In this document: positions 33,874-35,202 of the stretch, in pieces
Layout: each line of letters opens with the position of its first letter
Numbering within the stretch: the stretch's first letter is position 1
From: Microcella sp.
GTDB taxonomy: Bacteria; Actinomycetota; Actinomycetes; Actinomycetales; Microbacteriaceae
Length of the DNA stretch: 64,000 nt
Direction of reading: 5' to 3'
Assembly (NCBI RefSeq): GCF_019739195.1
Contig: NZ_JAHHDS010000003.1
Location: forward strand, 1,798,001 to 1,862,000
The notes under the pieces: generated by a model
Told to the model about the DNA's origin: nothing
Databases searched by the model: none
The model's input: the letters and a program-made list of their open reading frames with translations, nothing else
Program-made: the position numbers and the translations under genes

Positions 33874-33983
33874 GGGGTCTCTCTGCGTCACGAGGCGCGT
33901 GCTCAGCCTAGAGCGCCGCTGCTGCGAGCAGGCCGCGATCAGCTCCGCGCAGAATTGTTCGCGACACGCCGAAACCACAACAT

Positions 33984-34032
33984 CTAGGGGAATGACATCG
34001 GTGTCATTCCATGTATATAGTGAGACCCCTAG
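33984..34032 (+). promoter_or_regulatory. promoter with nested dyads for the 27-residue peptide gene
   Basis: A strong minus-10 TATAGT lies at 34016-34021 with ATGACA at 33992-33997 (18-bp spacer) as minus-35. Two dyads overlay it: GGAATGACA (33989-33997) with TGTCATTCC (34002-34010), perfect across TCGG, and an outer pair CTAGGGG (33984-33990) with CCCCTAG (34026-34032). The AT-rich consensus promoter is unlike the TANNNT boxes elsewhere in the window. The dyads look like operator sites for a dimeric regulator, or alternative RNA stems if transcription starts further upstream. Confidence 0.6.
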
Positions 34033-34072
34033 CCGCCGGGGGCGGAGAATTGCAATCACGAGGAGGTCCGAC

Positions 34073-34156
34073 ATGGACAACGACAACGAGACCATCGGTG
34101 GCTACGCCGTGCCCGTCGACCCGATGGACATGCTGCAGTGCGAGAGCTGCCAGTAG
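34073..34156 (+). CDS. 27-residue Cys-containing peptide, unknown function
   Basis: An ATG at 34073 with a full ribosome site (AGGAGG, 6 bases upstream) opens a 27-codon frame. It starts MDNDNETIGGYAV, has PVDPMDM in the middle and ends LQCESCQ. It is acidic (five Asp/Glu in the first half), has two cysteines two residues apart near the end and no basic residue. It has its own consensus promoter and a strong terminator at 34195-34234, so it is transcribed alone and probably at a high level. Possible roles are a ribosomally made precursor peptide, a metal or redox microprotein, or a Cys-sensing leader. The adjacent phosphotransferase-like gene may be related in function. Confidence 0.65.
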   Translation: MDNDNETIGGYAVPVDPMDMLQCESCQ

Positions 34157-34194
34157 CAGCCCGCTGACTGCACCCGCGGTCACCCAGCTTCAGT

Positions 34195-34234
34195 CGAAAC
34201 CCCGGACCGCCGATGATGGCGGGCCGGGGTTTCG
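34195..34234 (+). terminator. strong hairpin terminator after the 27-residue peptide gene
   Basis: CGAAACCCCGGACCGCC at 34195-34211 pairs with GGCGGGCCGGGGTTTCG at 34218-34234 across a 6-nt loop, with one mismatch in 17. The stem ends in A/T pairs followed by TTTCG. It ends the peptide transcript and separates it from the phosphotransferase-like gene 33 bp further on, although read-through is possible. Confidence 0.85.
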
Positions 34235-34266: not shown

Positions 34267-35202
34267 ATGAGCATCGCCGCTGATGCCGTGACCGTCGACG
34301 CCCGTGCGCGCCTGGCGAGTGATGCCGAAGTGCTCGACCGCGTGCACCGCACCCTCGGCCCCGTCGAGGTGGTCGACGAGCATTGGGGCACCGATCGCGC
34401 ATCGCGCGTGCTGCACGTCATGACACGGGGCGGTGAGCAGGCGGTCGTCAAATGGCATCGGGATGCTGCGCCCCACCACCGCGAATCGACAGCTCTGCAG
34501 CAGTACGCCGTGGCGCTCGGCGGCGATGCCCCGCGCGTCGCCCTCAGTGACCCGGCCCTGCGCCTGCTCGCTCTTTCGCGCCTGCTCGGCGAGGCCGCTG
34601 CCGGCACGCCGCACGAGCGCGACGCCGACATCCACCAGCGTGCTGGCGACCTGCTGCGCCGGCTGCACGATGCCGAGCCCCCACGACGGCACGCGCTCTT
34701 CGGCCCGTCGATCGCCGCCGAGTTCGAGCGCTGGAGCGTCGCAGCCGAAAAGCTCTGGGGCGATGGCAGCGATCCGGCCGACGCGCGCGGCCAGCGGCTC
34801 GCCGACGAACGCGCTCGGGCTCGCGAGTGCATCGTCGCGGCCATGGACCTCGGCGAGTTCGACCACGTTCCCGTGCACGGGCGCTTCGAGCCCCGGCACT
34901 GGATCATCGACCCCGGCGGGCGGGTGCGCCTCATCGACTTCAGCCAGCTGCGGTTCGAGCCGCGCATCACCGACCTGGTGTGGCTCGAGTACGGGCCGTG
35001 GCGCGACGAGCCGTGGCTGCGGGCCGCCTTCCTGCACGGCTACGGCCGCATTCCGACCGAGCGCGACGAGCTCGCGCTGCGTGCCATCGCGGCGACGCGG
35101 GGTCTCGAGCTGCTCGTGCGCGGCGAGGCGCGCGGTCACGCCGCCGAGCGCACCCTGGGCCGCGGCATGCTCGACCGCCTGCTCGGCGCGACGCTCTTCT
35201 AG
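34267..35202 (+). CDS. APH-fold phosphotransferase-like protein lacking catalytic residues
   Basis: A 311-residue protein of the aminoglycoside-phosphotransferase superfamily. The N-lobe includes VKWHRDAAPHH, which could hold the ATP lysine, and the C-lobe includes HQRAGDLLRRLHDAE. The catalytic loop reads H204-G-R206-F-E-P-R-H211-W, where active kinases have H-G-D and an Asn five residues later; the metal-binding Asp, D224 in RLIDFSQ, is kept at the normal 18-residue spacing. The base Asp is Arg and the Asn is His, so phosphotransfer is doubtful. GGAGGG precedes the ATG. Position suggests a link to the 27-residue peptide. Confidence 0.85.
   Translation: MSIAADAVTVDARARLASDAEVLDRVHRTLGPVEVVDEHWGTDRASRVLHVMTRGGEQAVVKWHRDAAPHHRESTALQQYAVALGGDAPRVALSDPALRLLALSRLLGEAAAGTPHERDADIHQRAGDLLRRLHDAEPPRRHALFGPSIAAEFERWSVAAEKLWGDGSDPADARGQRLADERARARECIVAAMDLGEFDHVPVHGRFEPRHWIIDPGGRVRLIDFSQLRFEPRITDLVWLEYGPWRDEPWLRAAFLHGYGRIPTERDELALRAIAATRGLELLVRGEARGHAAERTLGRGMLDRLLGATLF

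Follow-up and report, generated by a model that had tools for sequence, protein, structure and literature searches.

The window, a 64,000-nucleotide stretch of a Microcella sp. genome, contains a 27-codon reading frame that runs from an ATG at 34073 to a TAG at 34156 and encodes MDNDNETIGGYAVPVDPMDMLQCESCQ, a peptide with two cysteines at its end. The features of this locus, in window coordinates, are as follows:

34073 to 34156, plus strand: peptide gene (27 residues, CESCQ end), a probable detached C-terminal redox tail of NrdA by homology, co-occurrence and selection
34061 to 34066, plus strand: ribosome-binding site AGGAGG, 6 nucleotides 5' of the ATG
34016 to 34021, plus strand: −10 box TATAGT, from the promoter scan and coordinates
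33975 to 33990, plus strand: NrdR-like box 1, CCACAACATCTAGGGG, 12 of 16 positions matching the NrdR consensus
34008 to 34023, plus strand: NrdR-like box 2, TCCATGTATATAGTGA, 11 of 16 positions matching this consensus, with a poor left half and overlapping the −10 box
33989 to 34010, no strand: perfect 9-bp dyad GGAATGACA-N4-TGTCATTCC between both NrdR-like boxes (dyad search, minimum length 8)
34195 to 34234, plus strand: strong GC-rich hairpin 3' of the peptide gene, without a U-run, a probable terminator (folding against shuffles)
34267 to 35202, plus strand: gene for an APH-like kinase (PF04655, under the cut-off) with the peptide gene on one side and MaoC-type genes on the other, a neighbour outside the system

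Rechecking of the coordinates bore out the original prediction as to the 27-codon frame, the AGGAGG 6 nucleotides upstream, the TATAGT −10 box and the lack of basic residues (K/R/H = 0). Between 33000 and 35500 the promoter scan returned ATGACA-18 nt-TATAGT as the sole site, against 0.1 expected in shuffles. Nested dyads had also been proposed, and of these the inner one stands as a perfect 9-bp repeat that is mostly kept in the promoters of relatives and comes in addition to the boxes at the stand-alone copies, while the outer one (CTAGGGG...CCCCTAG) is present over 7 bp only and its exact form is not kept in relatives. Similarly, the strong stem behind the gene is real but comprises 16 pairs with 1 internal mismatch rather than the proposed 17 bp (−37.1 kcal/mol, z −4.6, with 0 of 200 shuffles equally stable), and it lacks a U-run, which explains the absence of an entry for it in the terminator scan. 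The 27-codon gene is real and is kept by purifying selection, with a pN/pS of 0.20 overall and 0.10 for codons 11–27 across 29 of the 30 stand-alone copies from the Microbacteriaceae search (L030, of another length, was left out). The central dyad, GAATGACA-N4-TGTCATTC (33989–34010), has a single near match elsewhere in the genome, with 2 mismatches (L319, 1566–1585), 5' of a gene that appears WhiB-like by eye.

A search of 199 Microbacteriaceae genomes (cut-off E <= 1) detected the peptide in 96 of them, 93 with strong and 3 with weak matches, mostly in at least 2 copies per genome. These copies lie either directly behind nrdA (operonic) or apart from it (stand-alone, as in the window), and in 25 chosen rows both kinds have in common an invariant P-x-DPM and invariant Cys positions (C23 and C26, a CxxC pair). 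Conservation of PVDPMDM and CESCQ, suggested earlier as a check, is thus found for P-x-DPM and both cysteines in these rows, and not for the second M or the E of CESCQ, which vary. Among the best 80 of 343 stretches that matched in genome_contigs, the commonest of the three neighbours tested was a gene that we take to be MaoC-type, in the flank of 66 loci; the kinase gene occurs in 17, all Microcella-like, and nrdA or nrdB was found in the flanks of 0 of these 80 loci, some of which are short contigs.

The second copy in the Microcella genome itself (L002) is a 31-codon ORF between nrdA and nrdB that overlaps the nrdA stop as TAATGA. The adjoining NrdA has an ATP-cone and no Cys pair at its C-terminal end; aligned with solved class I structures, it keeps the three catalytic Cys positions. 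A protein query and PF02867 found no other RNR large subunit in the genome (class III being outside the search), and this one is class I; as PF02867 was silent in 3 of 14 control genomes, including Corynebacterium glutamicum, genome and phage-record searches with this family can overlook a subunit. The genome also has a gene with an ATP-cone whose start looks NrdR-like by eye.

Across the family, the occurrence of the peptide follows that of NrdA. Strong matches were obtained in 91 of the 91 NrdA genomes among the 199 and in 0 of the 100 that have only a class-Ib-like subunit (∼30% identical to the query), counts that are not phylogenetically independent. The link holds within two genera of mixed state, where G052 carries the peptide and G122 does not, and G068 carries it and G132 and G185 do not. 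Weak matches (E 0.05 to 0.95) occur in 3 class-Ib-like-only genomes; in one such genome, G141, the weak match reaches 5.7e-4 with the profile of the wider search described below and lies in a 16-residue frame. Eight family genomes gave no RNR match, and the peptide is present in 2 of these (G113 and G172). The class-Ib-like proteins end in a CVSCML tail of their own in all 9 read, out of the 100 genomes.

The nrdA 3' ends were read in 89 of the 91 genomes (G022 and G101 were left out), with one lying at a contig end (G183). A separate tail ORF follows nrdA in 83 of the 88 assessable cases and none follows in 5, a covalent tail being found in none of the 88; G009, a draft MAG counted within the 83, is ambiguous, as its NrdA frame continues through the tail region without a stop. 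The distance from the nrdA stop to the tail motif ranges from 20 to 144 nucleotides, in differing frames. Long open frames (to 1475 aa) in some genomes were considered as possible tail-bearing NrdAs and rejected, since in the opened loci the tail is in another frame or behind the NrdA stop. The five genomes without a tail after nrdA (G015, G053, G123, G138 and G177, the last an 88% complete draft) all have tail copies elsewhere, with 1 match in each of four and 3 in G123, two of which were located. Four of the five are on our NrdA tree, at three separate places, with L052 on a long branch of unsure position. If the enzyme needs its tail, then in these genomes the tail can only act in trans.

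The stand-alone copies and nrdA also appear to have a promoter arrangement in common. Box 1 has the consensus ACACTAcATgTaGtGG in the promoters of 29 relatives, and the box scores given above refer to a base consensus that we take to be that of NrdR. The pattern ACATNTNGNG-N22-25-TATATAGTG has just 2 matches in the 2.88-Mb genome, one before nrdA and one before the peptide gene, and its reversed control has 0; the arrangement is the same at both, with a box spacer of 17 bp at the peptide gene and 16 bp at nrdA (hand count). A slightly wider two-box pattern matches 28 of the 30 stand-alone loci, the two that miss (L019 and L020) having a near variant, and 0 of 80 viral tail copies. Where nrdA has no operonic tail behind it, the two-box pattern precedes the tail copies of three genomes (G053, G138 and G177); in G015 it is absent and a near-perfect single box was seen by eye. 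The available text of PMC12051234 describes NrdR sites as pairs of 16-bp boxes with a permitted spacing of 14–17 bp, a layout to which the pair at the peptide gene conforms, with box 2 weak and the base consensus being our own assumption.

The origin of the peptide is suggested by more distant relatives. A profile built from 25 tails gave 26 matches in 297 genomes from the order and 6 in 296 from the phylum, counts that include the genome studied here and weak matches. Fourteen loci from these searches were read; in 10 of them (L072–L081), from other families, the tail is fused to the end of NrdA, which there terminates in ...CPVDPMERLQCESCQ or a near variant, and the remaining 4 are weak matches that lack the Cys part and show no NrdA match. 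The other matches in the order were assessed by frame length alone (458 to 1108 aa, except 16 in G141). In a tree built from the C-terminal halves of 38 NrdA proteins, midpoint-rooted and with several forks open, the fused rows fall 10 of 10 on one side of a branch with 98/99 support. The peptide has no family match in Pfam or NCBIfam, in agreement with the original prediction, which knew of no described family with this sequence; it is, nonetheless, homologous to the end of a known protein, and the redox microprotein proposed there as one option was right in kind, the match being to the CxxC tail of RNR.

In known enzymes this tail is located on NrdA, in all class I RNRs according to the accessible part of PMC6187632, which also describes the role of the pair in class I, and 'almost exclusively' according to that of PMC9669993; the general role of CXXC tails is treated in PMC3483043, likewise seen as an excerpt. 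In the Microbacteriaceae the same sequence block with its Cys pair, fused in the relatives from other families (NrdA/NrdE tails), is a separate peptide. Given that fused tails are the rule in these partial sources, the separation of the tail from NrdA is most simply explained by a single fission in the Microbacteriaceae line.

Homology, separation, co-occurrence, a shared promoter pattern, selection and five genomes with the tail elsewhere only are established at the level of sequence, and together they make it highly probable that the peptide is a detached, trans-acting redox tail of class Ia RNR. NrdA keeps the three catalytic cysteines; according to this model, the Cys pair needed to reduce the active-site disulfide again after each turnover would reside on a free peptide of ∼21–33 residues. 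The peptide is usually encoded between nrdA and nrdB, with a further copy in a transcription unit of its own that would be of NrdR type, as in the window. The reduced peptide would enter the NrdA active site, exchange its dithiol for the disulfide and leave, and the oxidised form would then be reduced by thioredoxin or a related redoxin. The extra NrdR-controlled copy may tune the supply of the tail to dNTP demand.

Several points stand against this reading. Once detached, a tail would have to be locally concentrated or to dock on the enzyme, and not all extra copies have the two-box promoter (30 of the 37 tail copies tested overall match the wider pattern). In other class I RNRs, an isolated tail can act across subunits, and the tail of yeast R1 reportedly acts in trans (about 2007). 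A (K/R)GFG motif, often double, was observed near the end of detached-tail NrdAs (e.g. L032, L036 and L059; G015 has RGFAGF), and it also precedes some fused tails. The retained motif may therefore be a putative docking site, to which the acidic peptide would perhaps bind.

Alternatively, only the tail after nrdA could be catalytic, becoming linked to NrdA through a frameshift, readthrough or ligation, with the stand-alone copy as a spare. Several tail ORFs do overlap the nrdA stop as TAATGA or ATGA; the variable offset and differing frames noted above, the five genomes without any tail after nrdA and the strong selection on the stand-alone copies nevertheless render this very unlikely. Slightly less likely still is a role of the stand-alone peptide as a regulator or inhibitor of RNR, for instance as a competitor of the operonic tail for NrdA or thioredoxin. 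Such a role would suit a second, separately controlled copy and its carriage on mobile elements, but not the P-x-DPM and Cys positions common to operonic and stand-alone tails, nor the five genomes whose only copies are away from nrdA. That the frame is a leader or attenuator, or that it encodes a precursor of a ribosomally made peptide, with an effect on the following gene, can be dismissed almost entirely despite the short ORF, own promoter, hairpin and two cysteines, as 63 of the 80 loci (some of them short contigs) showed no kinase gene downstream, the peptide has its homologues in NrdA ends and other copies, including those on phages and plasmids, lie in other surroundings. Both forms of this idea had been put forward in the original prediction: a Cys-sensing leader, which here would serve the kinase, is not supported, that gene being found in only 17 of 80 loci, and the relatives of the supposed precursor peptide are fused NrdA C-termini, with no conserved modifying-enzyme gene adjoining among the three neighbours tested (MaoC-type 66/80, kinase 17/80).

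The detached redox tail can be compared with several known arrangements. In the split class II enzyme NrdJa/NrdJb of Pseudomonas aeruginosa, as presented in the accessible parts of PMC4520616 and PMC5704485, the reductant-relaying Cys part is also on a second polypeptide; there, however, it is the zinc-finger cysteine-rich domain of a B12 enzyme, whereas here it is a 27-residue class Ia peptide in several copies. For Stackebrandtia class II NrdJd, the same portion of PMC5704485 asks if the C-terminal Cys of one subunit can serve the active site of another, and reports that two mutants, one altered in the active site and the other at the C-terminus, gave activity when mixed, and more of it with dTTP; there, unlike the free peptide described here, the tail has stayed on its subunit. 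The NrdA of Aeromonas phage Aeh1 is likewise in two pieces, nrdA-a and nrdA-b, a split that the available text of PMC3653736 ascribes to an inserted element in a phage gene, with no mention in that text of free-standing extra tail copies.

The literature searched, to which most subscription papers did not belong, yielded no description of a class I RNR whose tail is detached. The detached tail would be, as far as that literature extends, a new variant of class Ia RNR; the wording 'almost exclusively' in the available part of PMC9669993 implies that tail-less class I sequences may be known already, with the detached tail unnamed. The arrangement, if confirmed, contradicts the stated rule that the class I redox tail is on the large subunit in about half of the sampled Microbacteriaceae genomes. 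It suggests that one part of an essential, drug-targeted enzyme is detachable in these bacteria, and would offer a case in nature where the tail step can be titrated apart from catalysis. Tiny misnamed or unannotated ORFs in hosts, phages and plasmids would also be accounted for.

The tail is also encoded by mobile elements, among them phages and plasmids of these hosts. In IMG/VR, 324 stretches encode it, and among the best 80 of these (L171–L250) the frames span 27 to 262 aa, 78 being without an nrdA or nrdB match in the flank and 2 having nrdB. Named phages of the family's hosts with a tail are Clavibacter phages CN1A and CMP1 and Pontimonas phage phiPsal1 (E 0.03 to 0.2), and in CN1A and phiPsal1, the two opened, the motif and the ORF can be seen clearly. 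Further matches of this search were a Pseudanabaena phage (E 0.02) and two Sulfolobus virus records (E 9). Plasmid records matching the tail number 19 (E 3e-4 to 0.1). An RNR large subunit was found in 0 of 9 chosen phage and viral records searched whole, of which seven are contigs and may be fragments, with PF02867 able to miss a subunit.

We tentatively suggest, as a possibility somewhat short of an even chance, that the tail is a diffusible protein cofactor, an electron carrier of ∼25 residues whose concentration, beside that of NrdAB, would set RNR flux, and that phages and plasmids raise dNTP supply by adding to the host enzyme just this peptide, free of NrdR boxes. Were this so, the peptide gene would be among the smallest auxiliary genes known.

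Two viral contigs, L181 and L196 (116,681 and 120,518 bases), encode a tail and nrdB, with no RNR large subunit found in either; these phages possibly supply NrdB and the tail and use the host NrdA. In phiPsal1 the tail gene follows the holin gene and is unannotated. A Leifsonia plasmid (L251, 4983–5084) carries a tail gene of 102 bases under the misnomer 'ribonucleotide-diphosphate reductase subunit beta' (WP_223361114.1). In G126, in probable mobile elements recognised by eye from the ORFs around it (L057, 5139–5420, and L058), the tail forms the end of a longer frame that has an additional N-terminal part, the ORF in L057 comprising 93 residues.
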